Below are positions 9,815 through 25,635 of a DNA stretch of 64,000 bases, piece after piece (the stretch's first letter is position 1; each line of letters opens with the position of its first letter). Source of the DNA: an uncultured Pelagibacteraceae bacterium (lineage in GTDB: Bacteria; Pseudomonadota; Alphaproteobacteria; Pelagibacterales; Pelagibacteraceae); assembly GCA_902576335.1 (NCBI GenBank), contig CACGVC010000001.1, positions 86,495 through 150,494 of the forward strand, given 5' to 3'. Both the position numbers and the translations under genes were made by a program. The notes under the pieces are model-generated. The model was not told the DNA's origin, made no database searches, and saw only the letters and a list, made by a program, of their open reading frames with translations.

Positions 9815-10687
9815 ATGACAAGAAATAAATTAGCAATAATTGGTGGAAGCGGTCTATATGATGTAGAGGAATTCACTGACAGGGAATTAATAGATTTGAA
9901 TACTCCCTGGGGTGAGCCATCTGATCAAATTTTAAAAACTATTTATAAAAATAAAGAAGTTTATTTCTTACCAAGACATGGAAGAGGACATTTCATTTCA
10001 CCTTCAAAAATTAACTTTAGAGCTAATATTGATGCACTGAAACAATTAGGGGTTACAGATATCGTATCTGTTTCAGCTGTCGGTTCATTGAAAGAGGATT
10101 TACCTCCCGGAAAGTTTGTAATAGTAGATCAATTTATAGATAGAACTTTTTCAAGAGTAAAAACATTTTTTGACAATGAAATAGTTGCACATGTTTCTAT
10201 GGCTCACCCAACATCTAGCGGTTTGATGAACGCATGTGAAGAGGCAATTAAAAAAGAAAAAATAGAATATCAAAGAGGTGGAACTTATGTGGTTATGGAG
10301 GGTCCGCAATTTTCAACTTTAGCAGAGTCAAATCTATATAGATCTTGGAAAGCAGATGTAATTGGAATGACTAATATGCCAGAGGCAAAATTAGCAAGAG
10401 AGGCAGAGATAAGATATGCGTCAGTTTCTATGGTTACAGATTATGACTGCTGGCATCCAGATCATGAAAATGTTGATGTTCAACAAGTAATAAAAGTTTT
10501 GTTAGGTAATGCAGCGAAAGCAAAAAATATGATTAAAAACTTAATAGAAAACTTTGAAAATCACATTGATCCTATGGATCCAACCAATAATTGTTTAGAT
10601 GTTGCAATTATTACAGCACCTGAAAAAAGAACAAAAAAAACAATAGAAAAACTTAAAACTGTTGCTGGTAGAGTTTTAAATCAATGA
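9815..10687 (+). CDS. mtnP: S-methyl-5'-thioadenosine phosphorylase
   Basis: IIGGSGLYDVEEF, FLPRHGRGHFISPSKINFRANIDALKQLGV, GGTYVVMEGPQFSTLAES, IGMTNMPEAKLAREAEI. Confidence 0.94.
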   Translation: MTRNKLAIIGGSGLYDVEEFTDRELIDLNTPWGEPSDQILKTIYKNKEVYFLPRHGRGHFISPSKINFRANIDALKQLGVTDIVSVSAVGSLKEDLPPGKFVIVDQFIDRTFSRVKTFFDNEIVAHVSMAHPTSSGLMNACEEAIKKEKIEYQRGGTYVVMEGPQFSTLAESNLYRSWKADVIGMTNMPEAKLAREAEIRYASVSMVTDYDCWHPDHENVDVQQVIKVLLGNAAKAKNMIKNLIENFENHIDPMDPTNNCLDVAIITAPEKRTKKTIEKLKTVAGRVLNQ

Positions 10688-11754
10688 GAATAGAAGGAAA
10701 AGAATATCGTACTATTTGGTTTGAAAATAATGTCGTAAAAATTATTGATCAAACAAAACTTCCACACCAATTTATTATAAAAGACCTTAAAACAGTTAAG
10801 GACTCAATAAATGCGATTAAGGTGATGGAAGTAAGAGGCGCACCTTTAATAGGTGCTACAGCAGCTTATGGAATGGTTTTAGCTATAATTGAAACTAATG
10901 ACCAGTCATTTTTAAAGAAATCTGCAGAAGATTTAATTAGTTCAAGACCAACAGCAATAAATTTAAAGTGGGCTGTTGATAGAATGATGAATAAATTATC
11001 AGGAGTTAATAGCGATAAAATCTTAGAAATAGCCTTGAATGAAGCAAAAGATATATGTGAAGAGGATGTAAAATTTTGTGAAAATATAGGATTAAATGGA
11101 CTAAAAATAATAGAGGAAATTTATAATAAAAAAAAAGATACAGTTAATATATTAACTCATTGTAATGCAGGTTGGCTTGCAACAATAAATTGGGGGACCG
11201 CAACTTCTCCAATCTATCACGCACACAAAAAAGGAATTCCTGTTCATGTATGGGCAGATGAAACCAGACCAAGAAATCAAGGGGCAAATCTTACATCTTA
11301 TGAATTAAATGAAGAAGGAATTGAAAATACTATCATTGCAGATAATACAGGTGGCATATTAATGCAAAGAGGTGAAGTTGATATGTGCATTGTTGGAACA
11401 GACAGAACTCTAGCCAATGGAGATGTTTGTAATAAAGTCGGAACTTATCTTAAAGCTTTAGCAGCTCATGACAATAAGATTCCTTTTTATGTTGCATTAC
11501 CAAGTTCAACAATTGACTGGAATATAAAAGACCACAAAGATATCCCGATAGAAGAGAGAAATTCGGATGAATTATCTCATATTGAAGGTTTAGATGAAAA
11601 AGGAGATATAAAAAAAATACAAATTTATCCAACAAAAAGTAAAGCTATGAATTTAGCTTTTGATGTAACCCCAGCAAAATATGTAACAGGCTTAATCACT
11701 GAAAAAGGAGTATGTGAAGCATCTGAAAAAGGACTTAAAGAATTGTTTAAATGA
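10684..11754 (+). CDS. mtnA: S-methyl-5-thioribose-1-phosphate isomerase
   Basis: MEVRGAPLIGATAAYGM, LTHCNAGWLATINWGTA, VWADETRPRNQGANLTSYEL, VGTDRTLANGDVCNKVGTY. Confidence 0.94.
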   Translation: MRIEGKEYRTIWFENNVVKIIDQTKLPHQFIIKDLKTVKDSINAIKVMEVRGAPLIGATAAYGMVLAIIETNDQSFLKKSAEDLISSRPTAINLKWAVDRMMNKLSGVNSDKILEIALNEAKDICEEDVKFCENIGLNGLKIIEEIYNKKKDTVNILTHCNAGWLATINWGTATSPIYHAHKKGIPVHVWADETRPRNQGANLTSYELNEEGIENTIIADNTGGILMQRGEVDMCIVGTDRTLANGDVCNKVGTYLKALAAHDNKIPFYVALPSSTIDWNIKDHKDIPIEERNSDELSHIEGLDEKGDIKKIQIYPTKSKAMNLAFDVTPAKYVTGLITEKGVCEASEKGLKELFK

Positions 11755-12407
11755 AAAATTTAGATCAAAGAAATCAGGTTATTGAATATTCGTTAAAATT
11801 AAATTCTACAAATCTTTCACCTCTTAGATCAGGTAATATATCATTGAGAGGAATAGAGAATGATAAAGATGGATATTTAATTACTCCATCAGGAAAAAAA
11901 TATGAAACACTTAAAGCTGAAGATATTGTTTTTATGGGTTTAAATGAAGAAGAAGAAAAAAACAATTCAACTAACAAACCATCATCTGAATGGAGATTTC
12001 ATAGAGATATTTATAAAAATAAAAAAGAGGCACAGGCAATTGTTCATGCTCATTCTCCACACGCAACAGCTGTATCTTCACATGGAAAACCTATTCCACC
12101 ATTTCATTATATGATCGCTCTAGCTGGCGGAGATAACATTAAATGTGCTGAATACGCTACTTTTGGAACAGAGGAATTATCCAAAAATGTTATCAAAGCT
12201 TTAGAAAATAGATATGCCTGTTTAATGTCTAATCACGGCCAGGTTGCTTTTGGAAAAAATTTAGAGGATGCATTTGAACTTGCACAAGAGATAGAAAATA
12301 TTTGTCATCAATACACTATTGCTTTAAAACTAGGACAACCTAAGATACTTTCATTTGAAGAAATGAAAAAAGTTTTAGATAAGGCTAAAAACTATAAAAA
12401 AGGGTAA
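11751..12407 (+). CDS. Class II aldolase/adducin family protein (MtnB-like or methylthioribulose-1-P aldolase-like)
   Basis: GNISLR, KPSSEWRFHRDIYKNKKEAQAIVHAHSPHATAVS, NHGQVAFGKNLEDAFELAQEIE; overlaps mtnA by ATGA. Confidence 0.85.
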   Translation: MKNLDQRNQVIEYSLKLNSTNLSPLRSGNISLRGIENDKDGYLITPSGKKYETLKAEDIVFMGLNEEEEKNNSTNKPSSEWRFHRDIYKNKKEAQAIVHAHSPHATAVSSHGKPIPPFHYMIALAGGDNIKCAEYATFGTEELSKNVIKALENRYACLMSNHGQVAFGKNLEDAFELAQEIENICHQYTIALKLGQPKILSFEEMKKVLDKAKNYKKG

Positions 12408-12408
12408 G

Positions 12409-13449
12409 ATGATTAAAGTTGGGGAGCATATTACTTTAGATATTATAGGTACTACAAAAGAGTACGATCCTTCAGTTTATGAGAAAGTTATACATAAAAT
12501 AGCTAAAGCAGCCAATGTAACTATTTTGAATATTTCAAAATATAAATTTGAACCTCAGGGTTTTACTATTTTAGCTTTATTGGCTGAAAGTCATATTAGT
12601 TTTCATACATTTCCAGAAAATGGAATAATTAGTTTTGATTTTTTCACCTGTGGGAAAATAAGTCCATCAGTAGCAATTGATATTGTCAAAAAAGAATTTG
12701 AACATAAACGTATTGTTAAAAAAGAATTTAATAGAGATACTAGATCTCTTTACCACGATATTTATAGTTCATCAGGATTACAAAAATCATATGTTGTAAA
12801 TGAAGTTTTAGAAGACTTTAAATCAAAAGTTGGTCAACACATTGAAATTTTAGAATTAGAGCAATTTGGAAAATCTTTATTTATTGATGGTGAAATACAA
12901 GTGGCGGCATCAGATGAACATTTCTATAGTTCAACTTTTGTTGGAGCAGGTCTGAAGTTGAATAAAAAAAATGAAAGAGCAGCAATAATTGGTGGTGGTG
13001 ATGGTGGTGTTGCAAGAGAATGTATTTCAAAAAAATTTAACTTTATAGATTGGTATGAATTAGATCCAGAAGTTGTAGAAGTTTGTAATAAACATCTTGG
13101 TGATATTGGAAAAAAAACTACAGAAAAAAATTCTGTAAAATGTGTTTGGGGAGATGCCTTTGAAAGTATAAAGACAGTGAACGAAGATACATATGATCAT
13201 ATTTTTGTTGATTTAAATGATGACCAGTTTTGCATAGATCTAGCCGCTAAAAATATGGACTCTTTAGTAAGAATACTCAAGCCTAAAGGTGTTATTAGTG
13301 CACAAGTTGGAAGTCAGGATAAAAAACCTCTGCAAGTTGAAAATTGGCTGAATGTATTCAACCATCATTTTGGAAATACTAATTTATCTAGAGTTTACAT
13401 ACCTAGTTTTGATTGTTCTTGGAATTTTTCTTCATCAATAAATCATTAA
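12409..13449 (+). CDS. Bifunctional S-adenosylmethionine decarboxylase (SpeD) - spermidine synthase (SpeE) fusion
   Basis: N-terminal LLAESHISFHTFPENG pyruvoyl-site motif; C-terminal IIGGGDGGVARECIS and YDHIFVDLND aminopropyltransferase motifs. Confidence 0.88.
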   Translation: MIKVGEHITLDIIGTTKEYDPSVYEKVIHKIAKAANVTILNISKYKFEPQGFTILALLAESHISFHTFPENGIISFDFFTCGKISPSVAIDIVKKEFEHKRIVKKEFNRDTRSLYHDIYSSSGLQKSYVVNEVLEDFKSKVGQHIEILELEQFGKSLFIDGEIQVAASDEHFYSSTFVGAGLKLNKKNERAAIIGGGDGGVARECISKKFNFIDWYELDPEVVEVCNKHLGDIGKKTTEKNSVKCVWGDAFESIKTVNEDTYDHIFVDLNDDQFCIDLAAKNMDSLVRILKPKGVISAQVGSQDKKPLQVENWLNVFNHHFGNTNLSRVYIPSFDCSWNFSSSINH

Positions 13450-18750: not shown

Positions 18751-19263
18751 ATGTTTTACGATTTAAAAGATAAAAAACCAAAAAACTCTGGCGAAAATTG
18801 GGTAGCTCCAAATGCTGTAGTCATCGGTGATGTTACTTTAGAAAAAAATACTAGTGTCTGGTTTAATGCAACCTTAAGAGGCGATATTGAAAATATTCAT
18901 ATAGGTGAGGGATCAAACGTTCAAGATGGATGTGTTCTGCATACAGACCCAGGCTGTCCTTTAAAAGTTGGAAAAGATGTAACTGTTGGTCATTTAGTTA
19001 TGCTTCATGGATGTACAGTAGGAGATAATAGTTTGATAGGCATCGGTGCGGTGATTCTAAATAATGCTAAGATCGGTAAAAATTGTATTATAGGTGCAAA
19101 AGCTTTGATCACAGAAAACAAAGTAATTCCTGATAATTCATTAGTCGTTGGTTCACCAGGTAAGGTTGTAAGAGAAGTGACAGAAGAAGAAAAAAAAGCA
19201 GTATTTGAAAATACAAAGCACTATCAAGACAATTGGAAAAAATATTCTCGATCAATTTTCTAA
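18751..19263 (+). CDS. Gamma-class carbonic anhydrase family protein
   Basis: Left-handed beta-helix repeats; [51 protein letters not shown]. Confidence 0.9.
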
Positions 19264-19271
19264 TTATTTAC

Positions 19272-20669
19272 ATGAGTTTTTTTAAGAAATTTTTTTTTAC
19301 AGTAATATTATCTATATTTTTTATTGCAGAGTCTTTTGCTGAGATAACTTACTTACAAATCTTAAAAGATCCAACAGATTTAAGATTAAATCTTCAGTAT
19401 GCAAAAGAGCAAGAGTCTAAGGGCCGGTTTAAAGCTGTAATAGCGACTTTAGAAAGACTGAACGCTTTGTATCCAAACAATATAGATTTAAAACTCTATT
19501 TATTATCGATTTCAATTAAAACTGATAGCACAGAAAAAACCTTGAACTTGATTAGCAAAATTCAATCTAGTGATCAAATATCTGATGAAATCAAAAAGAA
19601 AGTTGAACAAATTTTTGATGATATGAATAAGAAAAAAATAGATAAAGAAATAATCGAAAAGAAAAAAGAAAGAAAAAAAGCTCAACTAGCCTCCAAAAAA
19701 AAACAACCTGAGCAAACAAGTCCTTGGACTTGGTACGCTGAGTTGAGCTATACTAACATGCTTAATTCAAATATTTCTAGTATCTCAGACTCTAAAACAC
19801 AATTTTCAGGTGGAAGTATTATTGCGATGACAGGTGTTGAGGGTGACAATTTAACAACGTTAAAAAATGGGTGGGGGGCAATCTATCAAATAAATTCCTC
19901 ATCTAATCTGTCTTTATATTCCAGTCATTCAACCTCAGAACAGAATAGAGCAACATCAGATGAAAATGATACTCAAACATTTTCAGCTACATATAGCAAA
20001 TTTTTAGCAAATAATACCGTAACATCAACTTTCTCGTTCACTGATTTAAATACAAGAAGAGCTGCAGATACACTTACTAGAAATATTTCACTAGATAATA
20101 GATATTTTTTTAATGATAAAATAAAATTTTTAACTGGTATAAATCTTGGAACTTCAGAAGGAAATCAAAACCCCTCAAACTTAACTAAAAGAAACAGTAA
20201 TACTAGAAAAAAAGGTTTGGTATTTGGACCAGAATATTATTTTACCCCACAACATAATTTTAAATTGAAATATGCGTTAACTGGTACAGATGCTATAGCT
20301 GATTATAATTCATTGGAAGATGAAACGATTTCTGCATCTTACGCAAAAAACTTTAAATTTGGAAATTTAGGATTAACATATTCACTTTCAGATAAAAAAT
20401 ACAAGGAGCCAGATACAGTATTAATTCATCCTTATATAAGTAGAAAAGACGATAGCAAAACAATGACTATCAGTTTCAGTGGTAACCTAAACCAATTGTT
20501 TTCATCACAAAATTTTTTCCCAGTTTCAGAAAAACTTGGAAACTTCTTAAATACAATAAGTTATAGTACTTCATGGTCAGAAACTCGATCAGAAAGCAGC
20601 CTTTTACAATACAATTATAAAAAAGAATCTTTTACATTTGGATTAACAAAAAGAACTTATTTTCAATGA
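19272..20669 (+). CDS. TPR + outer-membrane beta-barrel protein
   Basis: Start chosen at internal ATG with signal peptide (MSFFKKFFFTVILSIFFIAESFA) just after the upstream stop; TPR-like segment then amphipathic strands to C-terminus. Confidence 0.6.
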   Translation: MSFFKKFFFTVILSIFFIAESFAEITYLQILKDPTDLRLNLQYAKEQESKGRFKAVIATLERLNALYPNNIDLKLYLLSISIKTDSTEKTLNLISKIQSSDQISDEIKKKVEQIFDDMNKKKIDKEIIEKKKERKKAQLASKKKQPEQTSPWTWYAELSYTNMLNSNISSISDSKTQFSGGSIIAMTGVEGDNLTTLKNGWGAIYQINSSSNLSLYSSHSTSEQNRATSDENDTQTFSATYSKFLANNTVTSTFSFTDLNTRRAADTLTRNISLDNRYFFNDKIKFLTGINLGTSEGNQNPSNLTKRNSNTRKKGLVFGPEYYFTPQHNFKLKYALTGTDAIADYNSLEDETISASYAKNFKFGNLGLTYSLSDKKYKEPDTVLIHPYISRKDDSKTMTISFSGNLNQLFSSQNFFPVSEKLGNFLNTISYSTSWSETRSESSLLQYNYKKESFTFGLTKRTYFQ

Positions 20670-20697
20670 TTTATATTATGTTAAAGTATTACTTTTA

Positions 20698-23685
20698 ATG
20701 AAATTCTTTTTTAAAACACTAATAATTTTTATATTTGCCACACAATCATTTGCGTCCTCTGAACAGATAGGAGTGATTGGCTTTGTGATCGGTAACGTTT
20801 TTAATCAAAAAGGAGAGGAGTTAAAAGTAGGTGACCCAATATATTTTGGTGACACCATTAGTGCCAGTGATGGAGCAAAATCACAACTTTTATTTATAGA
20901 CGAAACAGTAATGACAATTGGCTCAGATACTAAATTAAAAATTGATGATTTTATTTTCGATCCCTCAGCAAATGATGGTAAACTTTTAGCTTCAATTATA
21001 GCCGGAAGTGTAAAAATTCTTTCAGGAAAAATTAGTGAAATAAATCCAGCCAATTTAGAGGTAAAAACTCCTTCGGGTACAATTGGTTCTAGAGGAACTG
21101 AATTTAAAGCTTCAGTTGATCCATTGACCACTCAAAGTAAAATTTTACTTGTAGGCCCTGGACCAAATAATTCATTAAATTTAAGAGCAGGAGCTGTTGA
21201 GGTATCAAATGAATTGGGAACAGTTACTTTGGACCAACCATATTTATTCACTGAGTTAACAGAAAACAGAGCTCCGACAGATGCAGTGGTTATTCCTCAA
21301 GCTGAATTAAAAATTTTTCAAAAATTAGAGGTTGAGCCTGAAAAATCAGTTGCTCAATTATCTGTTGATGAACCGAATACTGATGAAGAAAATTCTGAAA
21401 CAGCTGAAGATAATACTGAGGAAGAAAATATTACAATAGTTGAGAATGATAATTTACAAGAGGATGCAACAGAGGAATTAATTTTAACTGATGAGGCTGA
21501 AATAAATTCAATAATTAAAGATGAAATTTTTACTGATGACCAAAGTGAGGGTGACTTAGTTGTTGAAACACTAGTTGCAGCATTAGCAAAAGATGATGGT
21601 GGCATTACTGCTCAAATGTTAGGAAAATCTTTCTTAAGTAGTGGAAATGATATTAGACCAGATTTAGATTTACCTGAAGGTATGAGTTTAAACTCAGAGG
21701 AAGCCAACACTTTTATAGAAGAAAAAGCAATGCAGGAAATAGAAAAAGTAATGTTAGTGAGTGCGAGAGTGAAGAATGTAGAATATGTCCCCACTAAATT
21801 TAATCAGTTAAGTGGTTTTGATGACATTAGAGTTCCAATTTTAAATGATGAAACAGGTGATGTTGTTTTTCTTGATATGGGTAATATAGATTTTAAACCC
21901 CAAGTTTTACCAGCCAATTTTAATGAAGATCAACCTCAATTACTACCTAGAATACCAGAACAGTTATTTCTTAAAGGTGGTGATGAAAACGTATTTATAG
22001 ACTTTGATGAAGGTCAATTTGTTGAAACAGTATTTGACCCTGAAATCGAAATACTGGATCAAAAATATCAAGCAGCCGTTAATGCAGGTGCTACTCAAGA
22101 TGAAATAGAGGAAATATTTATTGAAATGGATGAAATCATGCAAAAAGCTGATGAGTCTATGGTTACTATAAATATGGAGAGTATGGAAAATCAAATTATA
22201 CCTGCAGGTTTAAATATGGATTTTTTAACTGCAGAAGAGTTTGTAAAGGAACAAGATAGTTTTTTATTTAGTACAGATGTTTATACTGAGTCTTGGGAAC
22301 AGGCAGAAGAGGGAAAAGTAGCTATTTTTAAAATAGATGGTTCAGTTGATTATGTAGATCAAGAAGATGCAAATACTGCATGGGAAGAAGCTGATAAAGC
22401 TTATGAACAAGAGTTTGCCGAAGCTTTTCCTGAGATTTATCAAGCAGAAAAAAAAGCAGAAGCTTTAATGGCAAAAGCAGATGCTCAGGCAGAAGAACTA
22501 TTTTTAAATATTGATCAATTAATTCAATCAGGGGCTTCAGATGAAGAAATAGAGGAAGCGTTTATAAAAGTTGATGCTGAATTAAGTCAAGCTTATTTCG
22601 AGGTTGATGCAGCATTTGAGGAAGTAATGCTAGTTGAAATGAAAACCGATGTATTAATGATGGCAGAAGAAGCTGCAAGTTTAAAGTTCGAAGTAAATAA
22701 TGCTAAAAAGACTGGTATGCTCAACGGTAAGGAATTGTCAGAAGCAGAGATAAAAGAGTTTGAAGAAGAAGTGAAATTTTTAGAATTGGAGGTTGAGAAT
22801 ACTAAAGAAAACTATCTAGAAGAGGTAAAATTTGTAAATCAAGTTTTAGACATTAGACAAGCTGATATGCAAATGGAATTTGAAACTCCAGAAATAGATT
22901 TTCAATTAGCTTCATTAGATATTGAACAAAATTTACAGATACAAGAAGCACAAATTCAAGAAGAACAAGGATTGCAACAAGAATTTCAAGCAATAGAAAT
23001 GTTTTATATTGAGCCAGTTCAGCCTCTAGGTTTCTTTGAAGAGCCAGAACGTCAGATTGATGCTGTACAACAACAAAATACAATAAGTGCTGGTACCACT
23101 ACATATGCAGATTTAAACACACAATCAAGTGGAGTAGCTACTTATTTGGGGAATGCAACAAATTTAACTGTTACTTCAGCTGCAAGTAATGCAGTCGTAG
23201 CATCAACAGTTGGTTCAGTTGTTGGAAATTTTGCGCCAATTCATCAAATAAATTATTCAACAAGAACATTAAGTCAGGGTGCAATAATTACTGTCAATGC
23301 TTTAGGTCGGAACACAACATTAAGACTTTCCAATTTAAATAAAACACATAGTTATTCTTCTAGTGATACCGGAAGCGTTAAACCTAGCGTTGCTTATACA
23401 GTAAATGCTGCAGGCGCAGGTACCGAAGTTAATTCTAGTTTGACATCAACCGTTACAAATGATGTTACAACAGGAAATACATATTTAGAACCTTTATTAA
23501 ATCCAGCTAATACTAATTATTTAGTTACAGTTTCATCAGAGGCAACAAACACAGCTGGAACTGCTGCAAAATCAATACAAACGACAGTTACAGTCGAGTC
23601 TGATGGTGGTGTGGGAGGTGATACTAATAGAGCTTCAGGAACCGATAATGGTGTTGATGCAGTTATTCTTATTCCTGGAGGATAA
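20698..23685 (+). CDS. Large secreted acidic FecR-domain protein
   Basis: Signal peptide; FecR-like block (IGVIGFVIGNVFNQKGEELKVGDPIYFGDTISASDGAKSQLLFIDETVMTIGSDTKLKI ... VKTPSGTIGSRGTEFKASVD); long Glu/Asp-rich helical middle; Thr/Ser/Ala-rich C-terminus. Confidence 0.8.
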   Translation: MKFFFKTLIIFIFATQSFASSEQIGVIGFVIGNVFNQKGEELKVGDPIYFGDTISASDGAKSQLLFIDETVMTIGSDTKLKIDDFIFDPSANDGKLLASIIAGSVKILSGKISEINPANLEVKTPSGTIGSRGTEFKASVDPLTTQSKILLVGPGPNNSLNLRAGAVEVSNELGTVTLDQPYLFTELTENRAPTDAVVIPQAELKIFQKLEVEPEKSVAQLSVDEPNTDEENSETAEDNTEEENITIVENDNLQEDATEELILTDEAEINSIIKDEIFTDDQSEGDLVVETLVAALAKDDGGITAQMLGKSFLSSGNDIRPDLDLPEGMSLNSEEANTFIEEKAMQEIEKVMLVSARVKNVEYVPTKFNQLSGFDDIRVPILNDETGDVVFLDMGNIDFKPQVLPANFNEDQPQLLPRIPEQLFLKGGDENVFIDFDEGQFVETVFDPEIEILDQKYQAAVNAGATQDEIEEIFIEMDEIMQKADESMVTINMESMENQIIPAGLNMDFLTAEEFVKEQDSFLFSTDVYTESWEQAEEGKVAIFKIDGSVDYVDQEDANTAWEEADKAYEQEFAEAFPEIYQAEKKAEALMAKADAQAEELFLNIDQLIQSGASDEEIEEAFIKVDAELSQAYFEVDAAFEEVMLVEMKTDVLMMAEEAASLKFEVNNAKKTGMLNGKELSEAEIKEFEEEVKFLELEVENTKENYLEEVKFVNQVLDIRQADMQMEFETPEIDFQLASLDIEQNLQIQEAQIQEEQGLQQEFQAIEMFYIEPVQPLGFFEEPERQIDAVQQQNTISAGTTTYADLNTQSSGVATYLGNATNLTVTSAASNAVVASTVGSVVGNFAPIHQINYSTRTLSQGAIITVNALGRNTTLRLSNLNKTHSYSSSDTGSVKPSVAYTVNAAGAGTEVNSSLTSTVTNDVTTGNTYLEPLLNPANTNYLVTVSSEATNTAGTAAKSIQTTVTVESDGGVGGDTNRASGTDNGVDAVILIPGG

Positions 23686-23720
23686 GTTAATTATTTATTG
23701 AAAGAAGGATTTAATTTTTT

Positions 23721-24161
23721 ATGCCAACTTACACAGTAACAAACTCAAACTTTAATTTATCTTCAAAACAACAGAAGAATTTAGCAGAAGGAATAACCAA
23801 AGTTCATAATGTTGTAACTGGAGCCAATACTTATTTCGCTCAAGTAATTTTTAATAAAACTAAAAAAGACAATCATTTTATGGGAGGAAAGAAAGTTAAG
23901 GAGCCCTCATTATTTCTACTTGGTCAAATTAGAGCTGGAAGATCAAAAGAGGTAAAAGATAAGTTAATTTCAGACCTAAAAGATATTTTGGTTAAATATT
24001 CAAAATTAGATGAAACACAAGTTTGGGTTTATATAGTTGATTTACCACCATCACAAATGATTGAATATGGTGCAGTTTTACCAGAGTCAGGTAAAGAGAA
24101 AGAATGGTTTGCAAGTTTACCAGGCAAATTAAAGAAAAAATTATCAGCTATTGAGAGTTAA
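23721..24161 (+). CDS. Tautomerase superfamily protein, cis-3-chloroacrylic acid dehalogenase-like
   Basis: Pro1 after Met; H28, R70, R73, Y103, E114 by direct residue count; WVYIVDLPPSQMIEYG. Confidence 0.82.
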   Translation: MPTYTVTNSNFNLSSKQQKNLAEGITKVHNVVTGANTYFAQVIFNKTKKDNHFMGGKKVKEPSLFLLGQIRAGRSKEVKDKLISDLKDILVKYSKLDETQVWVYIVDLPPSQMIEYGAVLPESGKEKEWFASLPGKLKKKLSAIES

Positions 24162-24162
24162 T

Positions 24163-24762
24163 TTAGGGAACTAACCAGTCCATTTTATTAGTTTCTAAAT
24201 CAAACTTAGCTCTTCGATGTCCTTTTGCTGCAAGATAAAGCCATTCAATAGATTTAATTTTACATTTAATTACAGTGAAATTTTTATAACCTTCCTCACT
24301 TTGTTCCATTGTGTAATCAAAATCTTCTAATTTAGATATCATTCCAGAAGTTGGGTTTTCTGAGGTAGTTCCAGGGGGGCTATCAGTTAAATAACAACGT
24401 CTACTTATATGCTGAGTTTTCTTCCATGACTCTTCAGTTGTAGAATTTTGATTATTAACTTCACATTCTACTTTTACTCTTAATTGTATCTTTTCTTCTT
24501 TATCGTAGAAAACTAGAGAGGCATTCTTATTTTTTTTTAGAATATCGACTTTAGGAGATCTTAAGTCTGTATGAAATTGTAATAGATTGCTTGCTCTATC
24601 TGATTTACGTAAAACAACAATTCTTCCATCTACTTCATCTTGATGAGCACAAATAAAGACAGGAATTCTAAATGGCGAAGCTCTATTAGTCACTGCATCA
24701 TCTAACATTGACCAATACTTATTTTGAATTTCAGCTAAATCTTCATAGTATGCTGGTTGCAT
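24163..24762 (-). CDS. Pyridoxamine 5'-phosphate oxidase family / FMN-binding protein
   Basis: DGRIVVLRKSDRASNLLQFHTDLRSPKVDILKKNKNASLVFYDKEEKIQLRVK split-barrel pattern. Confidence 0.7.
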   Translation of the reverse strand: MQPAYYEDLAEIQNKYWSMLDDAVTNRASPFRIPVFICAHQDEVDGRIVVLRKSDRASNLLQFHTDLRSPKVDILKKNKNASLVFYDKEEKIQLRVKVECEVNNQNSTTEESWKKTQHISRRCYLTDSPPGTTSENPTSGMISKLEDFDYTMEQSEEGYKNFTVIKCKIKSIEWLYLAAKGHRRAKFDLETNKMDWLVP

Positions 24763-24765
24763 ACA

Positions 24766-25635
24766 TTACTTTCTAAATCTTTTAATTAAACTTGATGTAT
24801 CCCAACGATTACCCCCCATGGCTTGAACTTCTCCATAGTACTTATCAACAAGTTCAGTAACAGGTAATAGTGAGCCATTATTTTTTGCTTCATCCATTGC
24901 AATTTTTAAATCTTTTCTCATCCAATCGACTGCAAAACCAAAATCAAACTTATCATCTATCATTGTCTTGTATCTATTTTCCATTTGCCAGGATTGAGCT
25001 GCACCTTTTGAAATAACTTCAATTACATCTTCCATATTCAGTCTAGCTTTCATACCAAAGTTAATTGCTTCAGATAAACCTTGAACTAAACCAGCAATAC
25101 AAATTTGATTAACCATTTTGGCAAGTTGTCCATTGCCAGCACTACCCAGTAGTTTCATCTTTTTACTGTAGCAATCAATTTTATCTTTTGCTTTATCAAA
25201 ATCAGCTTGATCACCACCGATCATTACTGTTAGTGCGCCATTCTCTGCACCAGCTTGCCCTCCAGATACAGGTGCATCTAATGCGCCAAAACCATTTTTT
25301 TTTGCGTAATCGTAAATCTCTCTTGCAATAGTTGCAGAGGCAGTTGTGTTATCAATGTAAACAGCGCCTTTTTTAATTGTTTTGAAAGCACCGCTGTCAC
25401 CAAAAGTTACTTCTCTTAAATCATTATCATTTCCAACGCAGGTAAAAATATATTCTGCATCTTTAGCTGCGTCAGCTGGAGTTTCTGCCATTTTACCTTT
25501 GTATTCACTAATCCATTTTTCTGCTTTTGATTTTGTTCGATTAAAAACAGTTACATTGTGTCCACCTTTTGATATATAACCAGCCATTGGATATCCCATG
25601 ACACCGAGACCTATGAAAGCAACATTACAACTCAT
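24766..25635 (-). CDS. NAD(P)-dependent beta-hydroxyacid dehydrogenase (3-hydroxyisobutyrate dehydrogenase / tartronate semialdehyde reductase type)
   Basis: FIGLGVMGYPMAGYISKGGHNVTVFNRT; DAPVSGGQAGAENGALTVMIGG; GSAGNGQLAKMVNQI. Confidence 0.9.
   Translation of the reverse strand: MSCNVAFIGLGVMGYPMAGYISKGGHNVTVFNRTKSKAEKWISEYKGKMAETPADAAKDAEYIFTCVGNDNDLREVTFGDSGAFKTIKKGAVYIDNTTASATIAREIYDYAKKNGFGALDAPVSGGQAGAENGALTVMIGGDQADFDKAKDKIDCYSKKMKLLGSAGNGQLAKMVNQICIAGLVQGLSEAINFGMKARLNMEDVIEVISKGAAQSWQMENRYKTMIDDKFDFGFAVDWMRKDLKIAMDEAKNNGSLLPVTELVDKYYGEVQAMGGNRWDTSSLIKRFRK

Follow-up and report, generated by a model that had tools for sequence, protein, structure and literature searches.

cis-3-Chloroacrylic acid dehalogenase (cis-CaaD) and Cg10062 are the described enzymes that come closest to the protein considered here. 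In cis-CaaD, Pro1 is the general acid, with a pKa of about 9.3, Arg70 and Arg73 bind the substrate and the product is malonate semialdehyde; Thr34, located in the α1/β2 loop, has been linked to motion of an active-site loop, but is not proven to be defining (PMC11641302). Cg10062 (CgX) from Corynebacterium glutamicum carries the full residue set, yet as a cis-CaaD it is inefficient and not absolutely isomer-specific (PMC5818174). According to their entry titles, several PDB entries of Cg10062 and cis-CaaD hold covalent intermediates of acetylenecarboxylic acid hydration. Related proteins include malonate semialdehyde decarboxylase (MSAD), with the residues Asp37, Arg73 and Arg75 (PMC11641302), and Linker 1, in which position 103 is Ala (PMC5818174). 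Among papers that mention both SAR11 and tautomerases, none concerns the present protein, as judged by titles and abstracts.

In this study, a tautomerase gene in a stretch of 64,000 nucleotides from an uncultured Pelagibacteraceae (SAR11) bacterium, hereafter the window, was compared with these enzymes, and its distribution and gene neighbourhoods were analyzed across SAR11 and beyond.

Reading frame, active site and fold

The gene and the gap in front of it are as follows.

23686..23720, + strand: intergenic gap before the tautomerase gene, with an AGAAGGA-like ribosome-binding sequence, read directly
23721..24161, + strand: tautomerase-superfamily gene of the cis-CaaD/Cg10062 type, 146 aa, with Pro1, His28, Arg70, Arg73, Tyr103 and Glu114

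The reading frame extends exactly from the ATG at 23721 to the stop codon ending at 24161, and its translation starts MPTYTV; the upstream neighbour, also on the + strand, has its last base at 23685, and the reverse strand across 23721–24161 contains many stop codons. Pro1 directly follows the start Met, as in the cis-CaaD/Cg10062 subgroup (TSF Level 1 cis-CaaD), and, numbered from it, His28, Arg70, Arg73, Tyr103 and Glu114 occupy the positions equivalent to those of the subgroup, together with the motif VWVYIVDLPPSQMIEYG. The alignment with Cg10062 and cis-CaaD (the reference sequence of the latter was verified against PDB entries) is free of gaps up to residue ∼139, and the active-site numbering is therefore equivalent; the six-residue match is not a matter of chance. 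Pfam assigns the protein to Tautomerase_3 (48.4 bits; cut-off 25.7), and phmmer against the PDB gave 3n4g (Cg10062; E 3.5e-27), 7m58 (N1, a structurally solved member of the cis-CaaD family, matched over its full length; E 2.1e-23) and 2flt (cis-CaaD; E 3.1e-22). The initial annotation had described a cis-CaaD-like tautomerase with all six catalytic residues at identical numbering, and these data bear out both points.

The length of 146 aa and the predicted secondary structure (helices 15–33 and 76–94, strands 40–45, 63–71 and 101–108; pLDDT 65) are consistent with the two fused β–α–β units, of about 145–150 residues, of the subgroup. Since the AlphaFold model, built from close relatives only, was mediocre (mean pLDDT 65), it was used for the ranking of fold matches only; the best PDB matches were all Cg10062 or cis-CaaD, with a TM of about 0.6.

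Comparison with characterized enzymes

The best PDB match by both sequence and fold is Cg10062 (3n4g, 7ms0), with which the SAR11 protein shares 35% identity over the full length, the six residues, Ala34 and the motif. However, the SAR11 proteins have Thr32, Gly33, Phe38, Gly54 and Gly55 against Ala, His, Leu, Ala and Ala, respectively, in Cg10062, and they form a separate clade. With cis-CaaD (2flt, 2flz), the identity is 34%, and the six residues as well as Thr32, Gly33, Gly54 and Gly55 are shared, whereas Ala34 and Phe38 stand in place of Thr34 and Leu38; Ala34 was found in all 115 SAR11 copies. The SAR11 combination is therefore composed of cis-CaaD-like Thr32/Gly33/Gly54/Gly55, Cg10062-like Ala34 and Phe38, which occurs in neither enzyme.

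The Linker 1/Ps01740 (5uif) group has the same fold, His28, the Arg pair and Glu, but differs at position 103, where Tyr is invariant in SAR11. Identity as MSAD was rejected: plain numbering gives Tyr37, Arg73 and Lys75, and the Pfam family is Tautomerase_3.

Phylogenetic placement

A tree of 48 proteins split the clade of all six-residue proteins, which also holds Cg10062 and cis-CaaD, from the Linker-1-like proteins with a support of 99/100, and the SAR11 proteins formed one group (100/95) inside this clade. Cg10062 paired with a Methylobacterium plasmid protein (99/91), and cis-CaaD clustered among Burkholderiaceae plasmid proteins (96/96) on a long branch. The nearest sequences outside the SAR11 group were those of Microvirga and a proteobacterium. 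The sequences from two related proteobacterial genomes of ∼2 Mb (L133 and L135), which have a family code in common with a Burkholderiaceae-like genome, were drawn into the SAR11 group on a long branch, and their position is doubtful.

A tree had been proposed with the initial annotation as a check, and in it the SAR11 protein fell inside the Cg10062/cis-CaaD clade (99/100) rather than away from it. The SAR11 proteins make up a clade of their own within the cis-CaaD/Cg10062 subgroup of tautomerases, and the gene adds a new member to an already known family.

Distribution and selection

Near-identical loci (up to 97%) were found in single-cell genomes and MAGs of Pelagibacteraceae. Among 398 Pelagibacteraceae genomes that were at least 80% complete, 96 gave a match; one match is weak and partial and another covers just 46 residues, so that about 95 carry the gene. 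In g281, the second genus with many carriers, the gene was present in 38 of 66 genomes and absent from 28, and the complete genomes in one contig that were sampled from the genus of the window (g1) did not have it either. None of the 24 genomes of the sister family had it. Carriage by part of the genomes in both genera indicates that the tautomerase gene is accessory but common in SAR11. Searches of annotated phages and viral contigs gave no match, and phage or virus carriage was therefore not adopted as an explanation. The view in the initial annotation that an activity of this kind would be unexpected in such an organism needs revision in this respect: the gene is not a one-off.

All six catalytic residues are invariant in the 115 SAR11 copies. 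The median dN/dS is 0.074 (quartiles 0.057–0.094), with a median dS of about 1.1, which is near saturation, and the gene is under purifying selection in SAR11. Elsewhere, six-residue homologues are sparse across the phylum and include proteins of Caballeronia, Paraburkholderia, Cupriavidus, Microvirga and Methylobacterium plasmids. In the 17 non-SAR11 homologues, His28, Arg70, Arg73, Tyr103 and Glu114 are invariant, and Ala1 replaces Pro1 in two.

Two observations concern individual homologues. A natural Pro1-to-Ala variant with the other active-site residues intact occurs in L133 and L135 (also L167:6187-6627 and L174:6100-6540), where it adjoins a gene resembling a low-molecular-weight phosphatase (arsenate-reductase type, by eye) and a gene of 476 aa. 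In another genome (G962; L130/L175), an in-frame TAG interrupts the homologue, and a second partial copy lies ∼25 kb away.

Genomic context

Most Pelagibacter copies of the tautomerase lie in a variable slot that extends from a γ-carbonic-anhydrase-like gene to a pair of PPOX and HIBADH genes. In the window, the borders are as follows.

18751..19263, + strand: γ-carbonic-anhydrase-like gene, the constant left flank of the slot
24163..24762, − strand: PPOX-type flavoprotein gene, the constant right flank of the slot
24766..25635, − strand: 3-hydroxyisobutyrate-dehydrogenase-family (HIBADH) gene, a core neighbour adjoining the PPOX gene

Whether a genome carries the tautomerase or not, it nearly always has the PPOX gene (55 of 57), and where the tautomerase is lacking other DNA fills the slot. 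As the PPOX gene is kept regardless and the cargo is variable, the slot neighbours are not informative on function, and the PPOX, HIBADH and MFS neighbours were rejected as partners. The slot of the window (18751–24762) also carries genes for a FecR-domain protein of 995 aa and a putative outer-membrane protein of 478 aa. As a further recurrent neighbour, a DUF1330 protein directly adjoins the tautomerase in genus g286 (L159:7460-7747, by Pfam) and in a Pelagibacter locus (L053:5445-5753, by eye).

A different placement was found in g281, where the tautomerase lies between mtnP and mtnA in 17 of the 23 loci examined, followed after mtnA by a class II aldolase gene and then a fused AdoMet-decarboxylase/spermidine-synthase gene; in one such locus (L157), the tautomerase and mtnA overlap by four bases. 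The corresponding set in the window (9815–12407) has no tautomerase inside it.

9815..10687, + strand: mtnP, S-methyl-5′-thioadenosine (MTA) phosphorylase; its g281 orthologue directly precedes the tautomerase
10684..11754, + strand: mtnA, S-methyl-5-thioribose-1-phosphate isomerase; in g281 directly after the tautomerase
11751..12407, + strand: class II aldolase (FucA/Ald2-like), forming a DHAP-shunt-type set with MtnP and MtnA

At the end of this set, positions 12409–13449 of the window encode S-adenosylmethionine decarboxylase and spermidine synthase fused in one gene. Acireductone dioxygenase (ARD) was found in none of the 25 SAR11 genomes tested, and owing to this absence the MtnP–MtnA–aldolase set resembles the DHAP shunt, which converts 5′-deoxyadenosine to acetaldehyde and MTA to 2-methylthioacetaldehyde (PMC10986504).

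Genes for acetaldehyde consumption form a third context. In 13 of 80 loci from the SAR11 genome collection, genes for an ExaC-like acetaldehyde dehydrogenase and DUF779 come after the tautomerase. A tautomerase homologue of a Cupriavidus plasmid likewise adjoins DUF779 and an ExaC-type dehydrogenase, 67% identical to that of SAR11. The genome of the window has the ExaC–DUF779 pair on another contig (contig 9; L177), 92.5% identical to the L084 copy; its ExaC copy scores 864 bits, just under the model cut-off of 900, against 954 for the Cupriavidus copy. This genome also encodes MmsA, on contig 8 (654 bits; cut-off 448.5). DUF779 accompanies the tautomerase in 26 of 29 genomes and occurs in 15 of 28 that lack it (Fisher p = 0.003; p = 0.002 within g1), in a test that ignores kinship and the choice of genomes. 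The SAR11 ExaC-type frame of L084 (5555-7288; relatives elsewhere, including L177) opens with ∼65 very lysine-rich residues, which may reflect a wrong start or a real extension.

Most Pelagibacter copies, including that of the window, are not adjacent to aldehyde genes, and many contexts outside SAR11 are without them. A threonine-aldolase-like GntG gene lies directly upstream of the homologue on two Caballeronia plasmids and nearby on the Cupriavidus plasmid, and the Methylobacterium homologue is located after a molybdenum hydroxylase-type set. Mapped on the SAR11 tree, the positions of the gene require six changes or more, each site being mostly inherited, and the ExaC neighbourhood requires two. 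Any one placement in SAR11 seems to go back to one or two origins. Few events thus underlie the linkages, and the recurrent linkage to acetaldehyde-producing and acetaldehyde-consuming genes amounts to a handful of concordant events, not proof.

Possible functions

At about even odds (a probability of roughly 0.5), the protein would be a hydratase like Cg10062 that acts on a short unsaturated acid and is linked to C2/C3 aldehyde metabolism. The residue set and the known chemistry of Cg10062 and cis-CaaD support hydration of such an acid, and not specifically dehalogenation. In the mechanism proposed by analogy, Arg70, Arg73 and His28 would bind a short α,β-unsaturated acid, either acetylenic or 3-substituted acrylic, by its carboxylate; a water molecule activated by Glu114 and Tyr103 would attack C3, with Pro1 as the general acid. 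A 3-oxo acid would result, for example malonate semialdehyde, from which loss of CO2 could give acetaldehyde; the ExaC-type acetaldehyde dehydrogenase and MmsA, both encoded in the genome of the window, could consume these products. What we infer from this comparison is the reaction and the direction in which it runs, and also that the substrate is a carboxylate; in the best-supported reading of the neighbourhoods, ExaC, MmsA or the DHAP shunt may deal with an aldehyde product or supply an aldehyde from which the substrate derives. The accessory nature of the gene argues against this reading: the sampled complete genomes of g1 lack it, as do 28 of the 66 from g281, which indicates that the aldehyde pathways run without it.

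A dedicated step in 5′-deoxynucleoside (MTA/5′-deoxyadenosine) salvage, acting on a methylthioacetaldehyde- or acetaldehyde-derived compound from the MtnP–MtnA–aldolase set, is suggested by the position of the gene inside the operon at 17 of 23 g281 loci, with the four-base overlap with mtnA, by the occurrence of the Pelagibacter tautomerase in the same syntenic block as mtnP–mtnA–aldolase and by the absence of ARD. Such a role is nevertheless unlikely, as the tautomerase is missing from most Pelagibacter genomes and from 28 of the 66 in g281, its position in the operon seems to have arisen once and the pathway offers no obvious substrate with a carboxylate for Arg70 and Arg73.

It is less probable again that the protein is a generic keto–enol tautomerase or a detoxifying enzyme without a hydratase role. 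The gene is accessory and mobile, and characterized members of the linker set, including Cg10062 and cis-CaaD, keep some phenylenolpyruvate tautomerase activity (PMC5818174). However, this activity declines along the path to cis-CaaD (PMC5818174), and Tyr103, which is lost in Linker 1, is invariant in SAR11, as is Glu114.

The initial annotation had raised a hydrolytic dehalogenase- or hydratase-type activity. Its group placement is upheld by scores, tree and fold, and a C3 hydratase is plausible, whereas natural dehalogenation finds no genomic support. A chloroallyl alcohol route is known for cis-CaaD, and an aldehyde dehydrogenase neighbour would also fit this route; furthermore, the six catalytic residues of cis-CaaD and the motif are all present. 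The inference of a dehalogenase is weakened by Cg10062, which has identical residues and is a poor, non-specific cis-CaaD (PMC5818174). In addition, residue 34 is Ala and not Thr, cis-CaaD itself clusters with Burkholderiaceae proteins and not with SAR11, and neither a further dehalogenation gene adjoining the tautomerase nor a catabolic haloalkene cluster near it was seen. Dehalogenation may be possible in vitro, but is not supported as the physiological role, and a true hydrolytic dehalogenase of marine 3-haloacrylates is improbable.

Replacement of DmdD in DMSP demethylation, in which a 3-methylthioacrylic compound would be hydrated to give methanethiol plus malonate semialdehyde or acetaldehyde, is attractive because Ca. 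P. ubique is without DmdD (PMC5069961), a gap that it would fill, and because the chemistry parallels vinyl-halide hydrolysis with acetaldehyde as a product, but it is scarcely credible given that DmdA is missing from eight of ten tautomerase-bearing g281 genomes and present in all 20 sampled Pelagibacter genomes without the tautomerase, and that the known substrate is a CoA thioester. A GcvT-like protein near the tautomerase in three loci (L184, L187 and L189) was rejected as DmdA (233 bits; cut-off 410).

Implications

The gene context is unusually informative for a known family. A native, non-xenobiotic role of the cis-CaaD/Cg10062 family can be put forward only tentatively, with the odds against it: the SAR11 protein might provide an accessory step in 5′-deoxynucleoside (MTA/5′-deoxyadenosine) salvage or C2/C3 aldehyde metabolism, together with the DHAP shunt and ExaC, on a substrate not yet described. 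The aldehyde-gene neighbours are the first testable hint of a role of the family outside polluted soil and, with the gene carried by an abundant ocean branch, SAR11, the natural role of Cg10062-type enzymes becomes directly testable.
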